A stretch of DNA of 49,171 nucleotides from an uncultured Candidatus Pelagibacter sp. (GTDB taxonomy: Bacteria > Pseudomonadota > Alphaproteobacteria > Pelagibacterales > Pelagibacteraceae). How positions within the stretch are numbered: position 1 is the first letter of the stretch; every line of letters begins with the position of its first letter. The translations under genes and the position numbers were made by a program. Where the stretch lies: positions 1-49,171 of the forward strand of contig CAJQSF010000014.1 in the NCBI GenBank assembly GCA_905612495.1, given 5' to 3'. The notes under the pieces are model-generated. The model searched no databases, was not told the DNA's origin, and was given only the letters and a program-made list of their open reading frames with translations. Below, piece by piece: positions 27,960 to 36,094 of this stretch.

Positions 27960-28609
27960 AATTAATAAACAAAATTAAAGTTGCAATCGACTCTCCTGCT
28001 GCTGCGGGTGCTGGGACACAAGCAAGGTTAATTTCTAAACACTTCAACTTGTTTTATTTAGATACAGGTAAAATTTATAGATTGATTGCAAATATCAAAA
28101 TTACTCAACCAAAAAAATATTGCTACATCTTGATAAAAAAAATAATGAGCAAGTTAACTATGAAAGATTTGCAAAATAAGAAATTACTATCTGATGAAGT
28201 TGGAACAATGGCATCTATAATATCAAAAAATAAAGAGATAAGAAAACTTGTTCATGCCTTTCAAATTAAAAGTGCTTATCACCCCCCTAAAAAATATAAT
28301 GGCTCTTGTCTAGATGGAAGAGATATAACTTATAAAATAATTCCTGATGCTGATTTTAAGTTTTTTATTACTGCAAATACAAAGACTAGAGCCTTAAGAA
28401 GATATAAAGAATTAAAAGCACTAAATAGGAAAATATCCTTTGATGAAGTCCTAAAAAGTATCAAAAAACGTGATAAAAGTGACTATAATAGAAAAATTTC
28501 CCCTCTAAAGAAAACAAAAGATTCGGTATTGATAAATACTACGAAGCACACTAAAAGAGCTTGTTTTTTAAAAATAAAACAAATTATGAATAGGAAAATT
28601 AAAACTTAA
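27956..28609 (+). CDS. cmk: Cytidylate kinase with atypical P-loop
   Basis: VAIDSPAAAGAGTQARLIS, YLDTGKIYR, CLDGRDITYKIIPDADFKFFITA; between aroA and rpsA. Confidence 0.88.
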   Translation: MKLINKIKVAIDSPAAAGAGTQARLISKHFNLFYLDTGKIYRLIANIKITQPKKYCYILIKKIMSKLTMKDLQNKKLLSDEVGTMASIISKNKEIRKLVHAFQIKSAYHPPKKYNGSCLDGRDITYKIIPDADFKFFITANTKTRALRRYKELKALNRKISFDEVLKSIKKRDKSDYNRKISPLKKTKDSVLINTTKHTKRACFLKIKQIMNRKIKT

Positions 28610-30339
28610 TGCAAATATATAAAGATCTTTCAAATCCTGCCTCAAAAGAATTCGAACAACTACTAAATTCTCAATTTACAAAAACAGCTAACCTTGAAGA
28701 AGGAAAAATTATTACGGGTACTGTAAATAAAGTAACTAATAACTTCGTATTTCTTGAGGTTCCTGGTTTAAAATCTGAACCTATTCTAGATATTAATGAA
28801 TTAAAGAGTATGGGTATGCTTGATAAAGCAAAAGTTGGTGAAAAGATTTCAGTTCTTCTTGAAAGATTAGAAGACAAAAAAGGTGAAGTGCTAGTATCTG
28901 CTTCAAAGGCTCAAAAAATTCAAGGATGGGAAAAGTTAGTTGAAGCTTATGAAAAAAATGAACCTATCATGGGTAAAATTACTGGCCGTGTTAAAGGTGG
29001 TTGTATTGTAGAACACATCGATACAGGATCATTAATGTTTTTACCTGGATCACAAATTTCAGATAAACCTTTAAAAGATATAAGTCATTTAATGAATGAA
29101 CCTCAGAAATTTGCTCTTATTAAGTTAGACAAAGTAAGAGGGAATGCTTGTGTTTCGAGAAAAGAAATCATCTCATCATTTAAAAAAGAAGATAAAATTA
29201 AAATTGTTGAAAAATTTAAATTGGGAGACATCATTAAAGGAGCTGAGGTAAAAGGCTATAGTTCATTTGGATGTTTCTTTAGTGTTAATGGTGAACTTGA
29301 CGTTTTGGTGCACCTTCAAGAAATATCTTACTCGAGAGTTAATCACCCTGATGAAGTTTTTACAATTGGTGAAAAGCATGACCTGCTTGTTATTTCTGTA
29401 GACAAAGAAAAATTACAAGTAGGCTGTTCCATTAAACAACTTTCTCCAGATCCTTTTGAAAATATTAAAAACTATGAATTAAATAAATCTTATAAAGTTA
29501 AAGTTGTTAAATTAATGGATTTTGGTGCCTTCTGTGAACTTGAAAAAGGATTGTCAACTTTATTGCATACCAGCGAACTAAGCTGGACTAAGAAAAATCT
29601 ATCAGCTAAAAAAATATTTAATGTCGGTGACGAAATTGACTGTGTTATTACTGAAATTGACAAAGAAAAAAGAAGAGTTGCGATCTCACATCGTCTAACA
29701 ACTGAAAACCCATTTGAAGTTTTTGAAAAAAAATATCCTGTCGGATCTGAAGTTGAAGGTGAAGTGATCAGTAAAAATGAATACTCTCTTTTCTTAAAAA
29801 TAGATAATCTAGATATCGATGCATTCTTACATTGCAACGATCTTACATATCTTAATGATGGTGAAAAAAAACTAGCAGAGTACAAAATTGGTGACAAATT
29901 AAATGTCAAAGTTTTAGAAGTTAAAGCAGCTGAACAAAAGGTACGTGTAGGATTCAGACAGACACAGCCTGATCCGTTTAGTTGGTTTAACGATAAAAAA
30001 GTTAAAGAAACAATTACTGTTAAAATTATCTCTACAGATAATAAAGGATTAATTGTGAGACCTGAAGGCTGTGAAATGGACTTTGCCATTAAAAAATCTG
30101 CAATAGCCATAAACATGGCTGACGCTAGACCGGCAAGATTTACAGGTGGTGAAAGAATTGATTGTGCAATTCAAGAATTAGATTTAGATAATAGAAAAGT
30201 TGTACTAAGTATTAAACTTCTAGAAGAAATTGAGCGTAAAGTTGCGTTAGATACCTATGGCTCTGAAGCAAGTGGTAAAAATTTACCTTTTTCTTCATTA
30301 TCTGATGATTTAGAAAAAAAGAAAAAAGAAGAAGAATAA
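28609..30339 (+). CDS. rpsA: 30S ribosomal protein S1
   Basis: Multiple S1 domains (VKVVKLMDFGAFCELEKGLSTLLHTSELSW). Confidence 0.97.
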   Translation: MQIYKDLSNPASKEFEQLLNSQFTKTANLEEGKIITGTVNKVTNNFVFLEVPGLKSEPILDINELKSMGMLDKAKVGEKISVLLERLEDKKGEVLVSASKAQKIQGWEKLVEAYEKNEPIMGKITGRVKGGCIVEHIDTGSLMFLPGSQISDKPLKDISHLMNEPQKFALIKLDKVRGNACVSRKEIISSFKKEDKIKIVEKFKLGDIIKGAEVKGYSSFGCFFSVNGELDVLVHLQEISYSRVNHPDEVFTIGEKHDLLVISVDKEKLQVGCSIKQLSPDPFENIKNYELNKSYKVKVVKLMDFGAFCELEKGLSTLLHTSELSWTKKNLSAKKIFNVGDEIDCVITEIDKEKRRVAISHRLTTENPFEVFEKKYPVGSEVEGEVISKNEYSLFLKIDNLDIDAFLHCNDLTYLNDGEKKLAEYKIGDKLNVKVLEVKAAEQKVRVGFRQTQPDPFSWFNDKKVKETITVKIISTDNKGLIVRPEGCEMDFAIKKSAIAINMADARPARFTGGERIDCAIQELDLDNRKVVLSIKLLEEIERKVALDTYGSEASGKNLPFSSLSDDLEKKKKEEE

Positions 30340-30343
30340 AAAA

Positions 30344-30634
30344 TTGGCTATTGTAAAATCAAAGCTTCTATACCAACTAAAAAAATCATATCCTAATTTC
30401 CTTAAGCGTGACCTTGAAAAGGTTGTGTCCGTAGTTCTAAATGAAATCAAACAAGCTCTCAAACGTGGAGATCGTGTCGAACTAAGAGGTTTTGGTATGT
30501 TTTCAACAAATATTCAAAAAGCTAGAATATCACGAAACCCTAAAACTGGAGAAAAAGTAAACACACCAGAAAAGAAAACAATTCACTTTAAAATGGCAAA
30601 AGAAATGTTTAAAAAATTAAACAATGACGAATAA
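30344..30634 (+). CDS. ihfB: Integration host factor subunit beta / HU family (TTG start)
   Basis: RGDRVELRGFGMFSTNIQKARISRNPKTGEKVNTPEKKTIHFK; follows rpsA. Confidence 0.92.
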   Translation: MAIVKSKLLYQLKKSYPNFLKRDLEKVVSVVLNEIKQALKRGDRVELRGFGMFSTNIQKARISRNPKTGEKVNTPEKKTIHFKMAKEMFKKLNNDE

Positions 30635-31301
30635 AAATATCTTCGTAGCATGCGATGTTTCAAGTCAAAAAGAAATACTAGATTTATTAGAATTAATTCA
30701 TAAAGATATTTCAGGAATTAAAATTGGATTACAATATATTACACAAAGAAGTCCTGAAGAAATAAAAGAGCTTTCCAAGTTTAAAAAACCTATTTTTTAT
30801 GATGGAAAATTTTTTGATATTAAAAATACATTAGTTGAATCAATAAAATCACTTAAAAATTTAAATGTGAATTATGCAACAGTTCATCTTCTAAATGGGT
30901 TAGATTCTCTCAAGGTTGCAAATAAAGCAGCGCAAGAAATTAATTTAAAATTATTAGGCGTTTCTGTTTTAACAAGTTTTGGTGATGAAGATTTGGAGTG
31001 CCTAGGTTTTAATAGCAAAGTTGAAGATCAAGTTAAAAGACTAATTAAAATCGCAATGGAAGCTCAGCTGTATGGCGTTATCTGTAGCCCTCTCGAGATT
31101 AAAATGATTAAAGAAATTGCACCAAAACTTAAATGCTATACTCCAGGGATTAGAATGGGAAATACAAAAGATGATCAAAAAAGAACTATGAATGCTAATG
31201 AGGCGATTAAAGAAGGTAGCGATTGTCTAATAATTGGTAGACCTATTACCAAAGGTGATCCCAAAGAAAACATAAAAAATATTCTTTTATCGATAGATTA
31301 G
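30624..31301 (+). CDS. pyrF: Orotidine-5'-phosphate decarboxylase
   Basis: YDGKFFDIKNT (DxKxxD catalytic array), TPGIRMG, IIGRPITKGDP. Confidence 0.88.
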   Translation: MTNKNIFVACDVSSQKEILDLLELIHKDISGIKIGLQYITQRSPEEIKELSKFKKPIFYDGKFFDIKNTLVESIKSLKNLNVNYATVHLLNGLDSLKVANKAAQEINLKLLGVSVLTSFGDEDLECLGFNSKVEDQVKRLIKIAMEAQLYGVICSPLEIKMIKEIAPKLKCYTPGIRMGNTKDDQKRTMNANEAIKEGSDCLIIGRPITKGDPKENIKNILLSID

Positions 31302-31925
31302 ATGAAGTCAAAAATTTGTGGAATCTCCGACTCTGAAACATTAAAATATTTAGTAGAGCACCCTAACCCTCCTCAGTATATTGGCTTTATTGTTAACTAC
31401 CCAAAATCTAAAAGGTTTGTTGAATACAATCGTCTTAAAGAAATATTAAAAATAGATAAAAAAAACTCAAAATATGTTGCAGTATTAGTTCAACCTGATG
31501 ACAGTATTCTTGAAAAAATAAAAGATTTATCTTTTGATTATTATCAGCTTTATGATTGCACTCTGGTTGAGATAAAGTCCATTAAAGAAAAATATAATAT
31601 AAAAATTATAGTTGCTATCACTGTCAAAGATCAAAATGATATTGTAAAATATATGGAATACAATGATCATGCGGATATAATTTTATTTGATAGTAAAGGT
31701 TATGAAAAAAGCATGTCTTTTGATCATCAGTTAATCAAGAATCTTAAAACAAATAAAGAATTAATGTTAGCAGGAAATATCCAGATAGAAGATAATATTG
31801 TAAACTACAAGGAAATTGCTGACATTGTAGATATTTCTGGAGGTCTAGAAACATCTGGATTAAAAGATATTTCAAAAATAAATATTTTTTTAGAAAAAAT
31901 TAAACAAATTAATAATGAAACTTAA
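31302..31925 (+). CDS. trpF: Phosphoribosylanthranilate isomerase, divergent
   Basis: SKICGISDSE N-terminus, IILFDSKG, DISGGLETSGLKD; upstream of trpB. Confidence 0.82.
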   Translation: MKSKICGISDSETLKYLVEHPNPPQYIGFIVNYPKSKRFVEYNRLKEILKIDKKNSKYVAVLVQPDDSILEKIKDLSFDYYQLYDCTLVEIKSIKEKYNIKIIVAITVKDQNDIVKYMEYNDHADIILFDSKGYEKSMSFDHQLIKNLKTNKELMLAGNIQIEDNIVNYKEIADIVDISGGLETSGLKDISKINIFLEKIKQINNET

Positions 31926-33147
31926 AAAAAAAATTCCTTTAATTGATCAACACGACAAAAGTGGTTTTTGGGGAGGTAAGTTTGGTGGTAATTATATTCC
32001 TGAAACCTTAAAAAAACCTATTGAAGATTTAACACTTCTTTTTGAAAAACTTAGATATGACAAAAAATTTCTAGAACAAAGAGATTACTATTTTAAGAAT
32101 TATATAGGCTCACCAACCTCGCTTATAAAACTTCAAAACCTATCCCGCCATCTAGGAGGAGCACAAATATATGCTAAAATGGTGTCTGAGGCGAACGGAG
32201 GTGCTCATAAAATCTATAATGCGACTGTTCACTGTCTTATTGCTAAAAGGGCAGGCAAAAAATATGTCGTAGGTGATACTGGTGCTGGCTATGCTGGTAA
32301 AATGTTAAGCATGGCTGCTAAAAAATTTGGTCTTAAGTGTAAAATATTTATGGGTGCAAAAGACATAAAGAGACAAAAACCAAATGTTGATGCCATGAAA
32401 AAAAATGGCGCTAAAGTTGTTCCTGTTTACTCTGGGAGCCAAACATTAGTTGATGCAGTTAGTGAGTGCATGCGATATTGGGTTTCAAATTGTGATAATA
32501 CTCACATGTGTGTTGGCTCAACAGTGGGTCCATATATATTTGTTAAGATTTGTGGTTGGAGTACAGCTCAAATTTCAAGAGAATTAAAACTTCAAATTCA
32601 ATCTAAGTTTAAAAAGATTCCAAAAAAAATTAAACTTATTAACTGTGTGGGTGGTGGAAGTTCGGCTTACGGTTTTTGGAGTGAGTTTATGGACTATGAT
32701 AAAAAACAAATTGAATTGGTGGGTGTTGAAGCTGGTGGACCACAAAACTCTAAGCTTCATGCTGCACCTTTAACAAATGGAGCTAAACTTGGGATATTGC
32801 ATGGTGCTGCCGCTTATGTTTGTCAAAATAAGGAAGGACAAATTAATGATACTGCTTCTATTTCTGCTGGATTAGATTACCCAGGTGTGTCTCCTATTCA
32901 CTGTTTCTTAAAAGATACTAAAAGAGCAAGGTATACATCTGCAACAGATGAGGGTGCTCTAAATGCCTATAAACTTGTAACCAATCTTGAAAAAATAAAT
33001 CCAAGTTTAGAGCCATGTCATGCTTTTTCAGAGGCAATCAAAATTGCCCCTAAGTTAAGTAAGGATACTATAATTATAGTAAACTCTTGTGGTGATGCCA
33101 AAAAAGATCGAGACATTTTAAAAGCAAGATTGAGAAAGGTTAACTAA
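31915..33147 (+). CDS. trpB: Tryptophan synthase beta chain-like protein with divergent active site
   Basis: GKFGGNYIPETL, GGAHKIYNA (PLP lysine), CVGGGSSAYGF, SISAGLDYPGVSPIH; positioned between trpF and trpA. Confidence 0.85.
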   Translation: MKLKKKIPLIDQHDKSGFWGGKFGGNYIPETLKKPIEDLTLLFEKLRYDKKFLEQRDYYFKNYIGSPTSLIKLQNLSRHLGGAQIYAKMVSEANGGAHKIYNATVHCLIAKRAGKKYVVGDTGAGYAGKMLSMAAKKFGLKCKIFMGAKDIKRQKPNVDAMKKNGAKVVPVYSGSQTLVDAVSECMRYWVSNCDNTHMCVGSTVGPYIFVKICGWSTAQISRELKLQIQSKFKKIPKKIKLINCVGGGSSAYGFWSEFMDYDKKQIELVGVEAGGPQNSKLHAAPLTNGAKLGILHGAAAYVCQNKEGQINDTASISAGLDYPGVSPIHCFLKDTKRARYTSATDEGALNAYKLVTNLEKINPSLEPCHAFSEAIKIAPKLSKDTIIIVNSCGDAKKDRDILKARLRKVN

Positions 33148-33148
33148 G

Positions 33149-33946
33149 ATGTCATTAATTAACTTAGCATTTAAAAAAACTAAATATGAAAAAAGACCTG
33201 CTTTACTCACTTACACAGTTGCAGGGGATAATAGTAAAAAAAAATCATTAGAAATATTAAGATCAATTGCAAACTATGCTGATATTTGTGAGATAGGTTT
33301 TCCTCATAACACTCCAATCGCAGATGGTGGTCAAATTCAATCAAGTGCTTATCGAGCTATAAAAAATGGAATTAAAATTAAAGATGTTTTTTCAATAGTA
33401 AAAAATTTTAAAAAATCTAAACAAGCAAAACCAGTAATTTTAATGGGTTACTACAATATGATTTATCAGTATGGTGATAGTAACTTCATCAATATCTGTA
33501 AAAAAGTTGGTGTTGATGGTTTAATTGTTGTTGATTTACCTTATCCTGAAAACAAAAATTTTGCCAAAAAATGTAAGAAGAAAAATATTAACTTTATTCA
33601 ATTGGTTTCTCCTACTACTTCACTAATTAGAATGAAAAAGATTATTAGAGATTCTCATGATATGGTCTACTATATTAGTATGCTCTCAACGACGGGTGGT
33701 AAGCTAAAGGTTTCACCTAAAAAAATTCTTGAAAGATATAATAAAATTAAAAATCTAAATAAGAATAAAAATGTTGTAATTGGGTTTGGAATTACAGAAA
33801 AGACTATAGCTTCGCTAAGAAAGGCTGATGGATTGGTGGTTGGAAGTGCCTTGTGCAAAGAAATATCAAAATCAGTCGAAAAAAGACAAAATCCTGTCAC
33901 AAATGTAACTAATATTGTAAAAAGACTAAGAGAAAAAATTGCATGA
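33149..33946 (+). CDS. trpA: Tryptophan synthase alpha chain, divergent
   Basis: CEIGFPHNTPIADGGQIQ, ILMGYYNMIYQYG, GVDGLIVVDLPYPE. Confidence 0.87.
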   Translation: MSLINLAFKKTKYEKRPALLTYTVAGDNSKKKSLEILRSIANYADICEIGFPHNTPIADGGQIQSSAYRAIKNGIKIKDVFSIVKNFKKSKQAKPVILMGYYNMIYQYGDSNFINICKKVGVDGLIVVDLPYPENKNFAKKCKKKNINFIQLVSPTTSLIRMKKIIRDSHDMVYYISMLSTTGGKLKVSPKKILERYNKIKNLNKNKNVVIGFGITEKTIASLRKADGLVVGSALCKEISKSVEKRQNPVTNVTNIVKRLREKIA

Positions 33947-34872
33947 ATTGGATTAAAAAAACCCTACGTTTCGGTGAAAAAATAAAAAGAATAATTAAAA
34001 AACGTGCAAGCAAAGAAGAAATTGCTAATAGTGATTGGACATCTTGTTGTAAAGGTCCAATTTTAAAAAAGGATTTGGAAGATAATTTGTGGGTTTGCCT
34101 ATCTTGTAATAAGCATCACAGAATAAATCCACGTCAAAGATTTGATGTTATTTTTGGTAAAAATAATTATGAAGTTTTAAAAACTCCAATTCCTCAGGAT
34201 GACCCTTTAAATTGGAGTGACTCTAAATCATACAAAGATAGGTTGAAAGCTGCTAGAAAAAAAACAGGTATGAACTGTGGAATGATGGTGATCAACACTA
34301 ATATTCATACTATAAAAATTACTGCTATTGCCTCAGATTTTGATTTTATAGGTGGCTCAATTGGTGCAGCGGAAGGTGAAGCTTTCTTATATGGAATTCA
34401 GCATGCTATTGAAAATGAACAACCTTTTGTAGTTTTCACTGCAGGTGGTGGAATGAGAATGATGGAGTCGTTAATCTCACTTTCACAAATGACCAGAACT
34501 ACTTTAGCAATTAATGAACTTAAAAAGCATAACCTTCCTTACATTGTTGTGTTAACAGATCCAACTGCAGGTGGTATTACAGCATCCTATGCAATGCTTG
34601 GTGATATTCATTTAGCCGAACCTGGGGCCCTGATAGCTTTTGCAGGAGCTCGTGTGATTCAAGGAACTGTTAGAGAAGAATTGCCTGATGGCTTTCAAAG
34701 AAGTGAATATGTTGAAAAAACGGGATTTGTAGATTTAATTGTTGAAAGAAAAGACCTTAGAGAAAAATTAGGCACATTATTATCAATATTGTTAAAGAAA
34801 AATTCTGCTATAAATTCATCAGAAAATGAAACTTCAGAAGATAGTAGAACGCTTACAAAAGCTGCATCCTAA
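33943..34872 (+). CDS. accD: Acetyl-CoA carboxylase carboxyltransferase subunit beta
   Basis: Altered zinc ribbon, GGSIGAAEGEAFLYGI, VLTDPTAGGITASYAMLGD. Confidence 0.95.
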   Translation: MNWIKKTLRFGEKIKRIIKKRASKEEIANSDWTSCCKGPILKKDLEDNLWVCLSCNKHHRINPRQRFDVIFGKNNYEVLKTPIPQDDPLNWSDSKSYKDRLKAARKKTGMNCGMMVINTNIHTIKITAIASDFDFIGGSIGAAEGEAFLYGIQHAIENEQPFVVFTAGGGMRMMESLISLSQMTRTTLAINELKKHNLPYIVVLTDPTAGGITASYAMLGDIHLAEPGALIAFAGARVIQGTVREELPDGFQRSEYVEKTGFVDLIVERKDLREKLGTLLSILLKKNSAINSSENETSEDSRTLTKAAS

Positions 34873-36094
34873 GGAAATAGATCTAAGCCTAGATCGAACT
34901 AGAAATCTTTTAGAAAAACTAGGAAATCCTCAAGATCAGATTACTTGTATTTCAATTGTTGGAACCAACGGTAAATTTTCAACAATCCAAGCTCTTTATG
35001 CAATTTTAAAAGCAGCAGATTACAAATGCAATATTTATACAAGTCCACACATCCAAAAGATTAATGAACGATTTGTCTTTAATAACAAACCTTTAACAGA
35101 TGTTGAATTGGCCAATCTTTTTAACGAGATAGAGGAGGCAAATAATGAAACACAAATTACTTTCTTTGAAATTTTAACTGTTGCGTACCTTCATTATGCT
35201 AGAAAATACCCTGAAAACATTAACTTAATTGAGTCAGGCCTATTTCATAGATTTGATGCAACCAATATATTAAAGAAGAACTTGGCGAGTATTGTGACAG
35301 CGATTGGTCTTGACCATTTAGATTGGCTTCCAAAAAAAGAGCAGACAGTTGAAAAAATCATATTTGAAAAAACATCCACTTTACTAAATTCCAAAATCAT
35401 TGTTGCAAAACAAAGCACAAATGAAATTAGCAAAAGTATTGAAAATACAATTAAAGATAACTCTTCTAAAAAAATAATCTTTAATATAAATTACAGTTTC
35501 ATTTTAAAAGAAAATGATTTCTTTTATTTTGAGGATGAGTTTGGTGGTTTAAAACTTCCAAAACCAAATTTACCTGGCGAATTTCAATTAGAGAATGTCT
35601 CTACTGCGATTGCAACCGCAAGACAACTGACAGATTACAAAATAACTGACGAACATATTAAGAGTGGTATTACTAAAATTGAAAGTATTGCACGACTACA
35701 AGAATTAAAATCTGGAAAACTAAAAGATTTAACTAATGATAATTTACTATTTGTAGATGGCTCTCATAACCCACTTGGTGCAAAAGTATTAAATGAATAT
35801 CTTCAAAGTTTAAATTGTAAAAAACATATTATATTAGGCATGATGGCAAATAAAAATCACAACGAATATATGAGTTACTTTAAGGATATTGAATCTTTAA
35901 CAACAATTGATATTCCAAACCAACCTAATGCAATCAAAGGAAATAAACTTAGAGATAAAATTAAAAATTTTAAAAATACCAATTACGAAAACTCAATTGA
36001 AAATGCTATTAGATCAATTAATCTTAAGGAAAATGATATTATTTTGATTACAGGTTCTTTATATCTTGCAGGAGAAATTTTAAACTTAAATTAG
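34826..36094 (+). CDS. folC: Folylpolyglutamate synthase / dihydrofolate synthase
   Basis: LSLDRTRNLLEKLGNPQ, IVGTNGKFSTIQALYAIL, LFVDGSHNPLGAKVL. Confidence 0.93.
   Translation: MKLQKIVERLQKLHPKEIDLSLDRTRNLLEKLGNPQDQITCISIVGTNGKFSTIQALYAILKAADYKCNIYTSPHIQKINERFVFNNKPLTDVELANLFNEIEEANNETQITFFEILTVAYLHYARKYPENINLIESGLFHRFDATNILKKNLASIVTAIGLDHLDWLPKKEQTVEKIIFEKTSTLLNSKIIVAKQSTNEISKSIENTIKDNSSKKIIFNINYSFILKENDFFYFEDEFGGLKLPKPNLPGEFQLENVSTAIATARQLTDYKITDEHIKSGITKIESIARLQELKSGKLKDLTNDNLLFVDGSHNPLGAKVLNEYLQSLNCKKHIILGMMANKNHNEYMSYFKDIESLTTIDIPNQPNAIKGNKLRDKIKNFKNTNYENSIENAIRSINLKENDIILITGSLYLAGEILNLN

Follow-up and report, generated by a model that had tools for sequence, protein, structure and literature searches.

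The window analysed here is a stretch of 49,171 nucleotides from an uncultured Candidatus Pelagibacter sp. (contig CAJQSF010000014.1 of assembly GCA_905612495.1), a SAR11 genome that is 63% complete; complete relatives were used for the question of copy number. At 31915..33147 on the forward strand lies trpB, recognized from its translation, the family TIGR00263 and its relatives in the Protein Data Bank (PDB). It encodes a tryptophan synthase beta chain (TrpB) of 410 amino acids with the motif GDTGAGYAG, which defines type I. The trpB-trpA pair (trpBA) occurs in at least seven deeply divergent types, of which type I is the most frequent. The next gene, trpA (33149..33946, forward strand; 203.5 bits against TIGR00262), is its co-inherited partner, in which the SDP of loop 2 has become NTP. 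Both catalytic acids of TrpA are kept in the alignment, E48 (Salmonella E49) at 33290-33292 and D59 (Salmonella D60) at 33323-33325. We consider it very probable that this trpB is a working TrpB1 and that the trpBA types are exchanged in one genomic slot as a co-adapted cassette.

Family and active site of the window TrpB

The window TrpB scores 400.4 bits against TIGR00263, narrowly above the cut-off of 392.45, and 94.4 bits against the TrpB2 family, TIGR01415, far below the cut-off of 518.85. Its closest sequences in the PDB are TrpBs, and it is 41 to 46% identical to the best canonical ones. The preliminary description of this DNA had proposed a TrpB1/TrpB2 tree, in which the window protein groups with TrpB1 and TrpB2 takes a separate branch (a quick tree with long branches, its place inside TrpB1 being unsure). 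An AlphaFold model built with 28 close homologues is weak (predicted local distance difference test score, 66) but matches TrpB in the PDB with an E value of 9e-35; residues 280-335 are too poor for active-site geometry, and no claim about geometry is drawn from the model.

The open reading frame translates exactly as first described, including K99, D121, YAG and GGGSSA. We aligned the protein with 20 canonical TrpBs of other Pseudomonadota, using the numbering of a Salmonella reference that is letter-identical to PDB 1k8x_B; all codons given here are on the forward strand. Lys99 (Salmonella K87; 32209..32211), which binds pyridoxal 5'-phosphate (PLP), is invariant in 28 SAR11 homologues, and Asp321 (Salmonella D305; 32875..32877) and Glu366 (Salmonella E350; 33010..33012) are likewise kept. 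Asp121 (32275..32277) occupies the position of Glu109, the textbook catalytic residue of TrpB, and Tyr126-Ala127 (32290..32295) those of Gln114 and His115 in the substrate carboxylate loop. In full, type I differs from canonical TrpB by E109D, Q114Y, H115A, N89Y, R148A, K167V, N236S, G310S and R379D and retains H86, K87, the GGGS loop (G232-S235), R141, N145, D305, E350 and K382-D383. A carboxylate is thus still present at position 109, where every type I to III sequence has Asp and none has Glu.

The motif AETGAGQHG is invariant in 20 of 20 canonical references, and the departures of type I are therefore well beyond chance. The rewrite of the SAR11 TrpB active site is real and clade-wide: the altered residues are identical across 28 aligned SAR11 homologues, and the same motifs recur in more than 100 type I SAR11 loci that we read. 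One residue does not belong to it. The preliminary description had counted the Cys facing the PLP nitrogen among the rewritten positions, but Cys392 (33088..33090), which aligns with Ser377, is no departure: Cys also stands there in 11 of the 20 canonical references.

A sole TrpB1 and the synthesis of tryptophan

Two readings had been offered at the outset, a neofunctionalized beta-replacement enzyme or a divergent but working TrpB. Changes at position 109 are known to alter TrpB specificity. The alteration of catalytic Glu109, Gln114, His115 and Asn236 together, along with the documented role of Glu109 (PMC9512447), would suit a SAR11 TrpB that had turned to another beta-replacement reaction and no longer made tryptophan. 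The window-type protein is, however, the sole TrpB1. A search for a second canonical TrpB, also proposed at the outset, found none in the window genome, where the remaining PALP genes are cysK (cysteine synthase) and thrC (threonine synthase), nor in complete relatives. Among 300 Pelagibacter genomes, 257 have a TrpB match (43 of 44 among those with a completeness of 90% or more) and none has two full-length TrpB1 genes; where two matches occur, in a few genomes, they involve fragments, one broken copy or distant TrpB2. Single-contig genomes (G105, G321 and G421) are among those with TrpB1 as the sole copy. In a small number of SAR11 genomes, an additional TrpB2-like gene of 454 to 475 amino acids lies outside the trp slot (L040, L041, L042 and L044), alongside type I or IV or, in an incomplete genome, with no TrpB1 found.

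Neofunctionalization is further opposed by the rest of the pathway and by the growth of isolates. TrpB is always paired with a TrpA, with Glu49 kept in all types and Asp60 kept or, in types III and IV, replaced by Glu; trpC and trpD, located elsewhere in the genome, are intact and present in genomes of every type tested. Pairwise ratios of nonsynonymous to synonymous substitution (dN/dS) of 0.03 to 0.05 in type I and 0.02 to 0.06 in the other types indicate strong purifying selection. Artificial seawater supplemented only with pyruvate, glycine, methionine and vitamins, and with no tryptophan added, supports growth of the SAR11 isolates HTCC1062 and HTCC7211 (PMC8437039). Kagan et al. 2008 (PMC2395257) placed the single trpB of HTCC1062 in a separate SAR11 cluster that shares the gene order of the window, and judged the gene functional. 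The combination that the preliminary description had named as fatal to neofunctionalization, namely conserved residues and a sole TrpB in organisms that make tryptophan, is essentially what we found, with the type of HTCC1062 presumed. Loss of tryptophan synthesis is accordingly very unlikely, and the best reading of the window gene is a divergent, working TrpB1 that is the standard TrpB of Pelagibacter (SAR11).

For such a working enzyme, TrpA and type I TrpB would release indole from indole-3-glycerol phosphate and then join it to serine on PLP. The beta active site of SAR11 would have been rebuilt around an unchanged Lys87, PLP loop, Asp305 and Glu350, and Asp109 would be the carboxylate that stabilizes indole in place of Glu, with a probable role in catalysis. 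Each of the rarer trpBA types probably continues to make tryptophan as well.

Probable exchange of trpBA types in one slot

Reading the locus in 52 genomes, we found that the same syntenic slot holds at least six other trpBA pairs across the Pelagibacterales. Besides type I (with a variant, TDTGAGYNG, in G121), the motifs are GDTGAGMFG in type II, GDTGAGMAG in type III, CESGAGQHY/F in type IV, C/AETGAGAHL in type V, TETGASMNA or CETGASMHS in type VI and the canonical AETGAGQHG in type VII. Identity between types ranges from 24 to 65% for TrpB and from 28 to 62% for TrpA. Assigned by score, with the motif read directly only in fetched loci, the 257 Pelagibacter genomes comprise 19 of type II, 10 of type IV, 2 of type V and 8 of type VI, the remainder being type I. 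One member of the Pelagibacterales (G039, locus L035) carries the canonical AETGAGQHG TrpB with an SDP TrpA in this slot, either ancestral or reacquired.

The types also differ at the alpha-beta interface. Types I to III and VI have Val or Leu in place of beta Lys167 and have also replaced alpha Asp56 (mostly with Thr or Cys), whereas types IV and V have a basic residue at beta 167 (Lys, with one Arg) and Glu at alpha 56. These two positions presumably form a salt bridge, and their paired change suggests that both sides of the interface are swapped together. Glu109 is kept in types IV and V, which are the only ones to have lost Asp305, with Gln, Thr or Asn in its place. Because TrpB2 has Arg at 305 and canonical serine/glycine synthesis is lacking in SAR11 (PMC6775983), the types could differ in their beta substrate, types IV and V using, for example, an activated serine ester, with nutrient differences maintaining the types; type I retains Asp305, however, and we regard this explanation as unlikely.

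On the forward strand, the slot is anchored upstream by rpsA, ihfB and pyrF (28609..31301), whose synteny is conserved. Between them and trpB lies trpF (31302..31925; PF00697), which overlaps trpB by 11 bases, and downstream follow accD (33943..34872), placed by synteny, and folC (34826..36094). By nearest-neighbor linkage, trpF and accD are partly linked to the cassette and folC, which clusters into deep alleles of its own in SAR11, is nearly unlinked to trpBA. In a set of 46 genomes, the nearest neighbor by TrpA shares the TrpB type in 46 of 46 cases, compared with 29 of 45 for trpF, 23 of 45 for accD and 15 of 43 for rpsA (shuffled mean, 10.1); agreement for aroA, ihfB, pyrF, folC and rpsA is at or near shuffled values. 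Linkage thus decays within one gene of trpBA.

Each type forms a clade on the TrpB tree, except that type I is possibly not exclusive of type II, and this near-monophyly is what would be seen if the types were old vertical lineages, one per SAR11 subclade, with no exchange. On a tree of rpsA, 3 kb away, type is instead scattered much like shuffled labels, needing 24 changes on 48 tips compared with 26.8. Flanks also match across types. The type I complete genome G105 and the type IV genome G285 are 90%, 96% and 95% identical in the proteins of pyrF, accD and folC but 35% in TrpB and 30% in TrpA; their DNA identity is 83 to 94% from cmk through rpsA to pyrF, about 60% at trpF, 43 to 58% across trpBA and 92 to 98% from accD onward; along the locus, identity drops from about 92% to about 50% and is back at 94% in accD. 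Genomes with flanks 86 to 95% identical differ in exactly the trpBA unit, and similar breaks with other end points occur between G017 and G142 (types VI and IV), G063 and G065 (IV and II), G191 and G164 (I and II) and G022 and G236 (IV and II). Transfer is also visible within a type: G084 and G294, both type II, have a synonymous divergence (dS) of 0.04 at trpB and 2.45 at rpsA, and such low trpB dS with high rpsA dS marks recent transfers. Strictly vertical descent is therefore highly improbable.

Could the patchwork be an artefact of assembly or binning? Many of the genomes are fragmented single-amplified or metagenome-assembled genomes, and a handful of trpB genes are interrupted by in-frame stops or by a split frame (G083:C11:12472-13694, locus L165, and copies in G317, G296 and G093), being either assembly errors or broken genes. 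Yet complete single-contig genomes carry different types (G012 type IV; G105 and G321 type I), the cassette in the fetched loci usually lies mid-contig, flanked left and right by the same genes, and each combination of flank and type is shared by several independent genomes, which makes an artefact extremely unlikely.

With type decoupled from rpsA and perfectly tied to TrpA, and with flanks nearly identical, the evidence points to exchange of trpBA in situ as a co-adapted cassette. By this mechanism, trpB would travel as one unit with trpA, and at times also with trpF or accD, and replace the resident pair without disturbing its neighbors, probably through homologous recombination in the conserved flanks. 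The upstream flank itself varies in two genomes: at L162 (G063) and L137 (G065), trpF-trpB-trpA-accD-folC is preceded by heat-shock-like, permease and glycosyltransferase-like genes rather than by rpsA-ihfB-pyrF, and the upstream DNA of the two is 92% identical, yet their types are IV and II.

Several points weigh against the combination of a working TrpB1 and cassette exchange. One is that E109D in Salmonella TrpB is known to alter specificity and lower activity. Salmonella TrpB changed at Glu109 or Gln114 has an impaired or altered beta reaction (PMC9512447). The activity of every trpBA type is a prediction, the type of the HTCC1062 TrpB follows from Kagan et al. rather than from its own sequence, and types II (331.7 bits), IVb (383.7 bits) and VI (314.2 bits) fall short of the TIGR00263 cut-off of 392.45. 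For the exchange, rare types were over-represented by design in the set of 46 genomes, and rpsA, the one marker on which the tree rests, itself recombines in SAR11 and is therefore only a linked marker.

Origin, comparison with known systems and meaning

A search of 142 alphaproteobacterial genomes other than SAR11 gave no sequence more than 46% identical to type I, and one of 160 Pseudomonadota genomes none more than 38% identical to type VI. These two sets argue against an outside donor within their range, other phyla lying outside the search, and viral or phage carriage was set aside because IMG/VR holds no relative of type I or VI trpB. The pool of types would thus be internal to the Pelagibacterales or derived from unsampled lineages.

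How unusual the locus is can be judged from two complete genomes of different types, G105 (about 800 kb) and G012, which share 563 syntenic orthologues with a median identity of 78%. TrpA (29.3%) is the third lowest of these and TrpB (37.3%) the tenth, the others at the bottom being mostly short, membrane or envelope-like proteins; the divergence of trpBA is extreme but not unique. The least conserved orthologue is a ferrochelatase (HemH)-like protein near position 911666 of G105 (L278; 28.7%), which suggests a similar replacement. folC has three deep allele groups, 27 to 31% identical between some genomes, with little or no linkage to trpBA type. Another gene that seems to have been replaced in place is the window pyrF (30624-31301). 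It is only about 37% identical to the pyrF of the close relative G085, whose TrpB matches that of the window at 94%, and it forms a group of its own when 43 SAR11 pyrF proteins are clustered at 50%.

With the TrpB1 of TIGR00263, as in Salmonella and Pyrococcus furiosus, the window protein shares the fold, PLP lysine, PLP loop, Asp305, Glu350 and TrpA operon partner; it differs in Glu109 to Asp, Gln114-His115 to Tyr-Ala, Asn236 to Ser and Arg379 to Asp, and in the replacement of both the beta Lys167 and alpha Asp56 positions in the pair. TrpB2 (TIGR01415), a PLP fold-type II relative found as an additional gene in a small number of SAR11 genomes, scores 33 to 48 bits to the window protein, has Arg where the window has Asp305, branches separately and lies outside the trp slot. 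The SAR11 trpB_1 cluster of Kagan et al. 2008 (PMC2395257) is the same cluster, with the sole HTCC1062 copy argued to be functional; the active-site residues, the other types of the slot and their exchange lie outside that paper. The cluster was thus already known, and the swappable trpBA slot is the more interesting part.

Replacement flexible genomic islands (PMC4033161) are exchanged through their homologous flanks and hold differing sequence of the same function at the same position, and trpBA resembles them in this. Such islands mainly code for exposed structures on which phages exert pressure, whereas trpBA is an essential cytoplasmic two-gene enzyme whose alleles are as little as 24 to 35% identical. 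We therefore describe trpBA as working like a replacement flexible genomic island without classing it as one. Gene transfer reaches nearly all core genes in marine single-amplified genomes, and SAR11 recombination is promiscuous (PMC12416821, PMC12374537); in the open-access literature we found no report of an essential two-subunit enzyme of which several deeply divergent versions replace one another at a single locus.

These observations have consequences for SAR11 and for the enzyme. In SAR11, which ranks among the most abundant bacterial groups, the most frequent TrpB has another residue in place of Glu109, and sister types keep Glu109 but lose Asp305. Together they provide naturally selected alternatives to an active site that has been the subject of much engineering. 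Essential two-subunit enzymes of 24 to 40% identity appear to be swappable in place within one genus, and we caution against trpB, trpA and folC as SAR11 markers. What forces keep the trpBA types in circulation is a testable question. A tentative possibility is that balancing or frequency-dependent selection maintains in SAR11 a lasting pool of seven or more co-adapted trpBA cassettes, whose catalytic solutions differ at residues that are normally invariant and which spread by cassette replacement, with natural tryptophan-synthase inhibitors or differing serine supply, for instance, as candidate selective agents. If this is true, an enzyme of core amino-acid metabolism would resemble a surface-antigen locus in its behavior.
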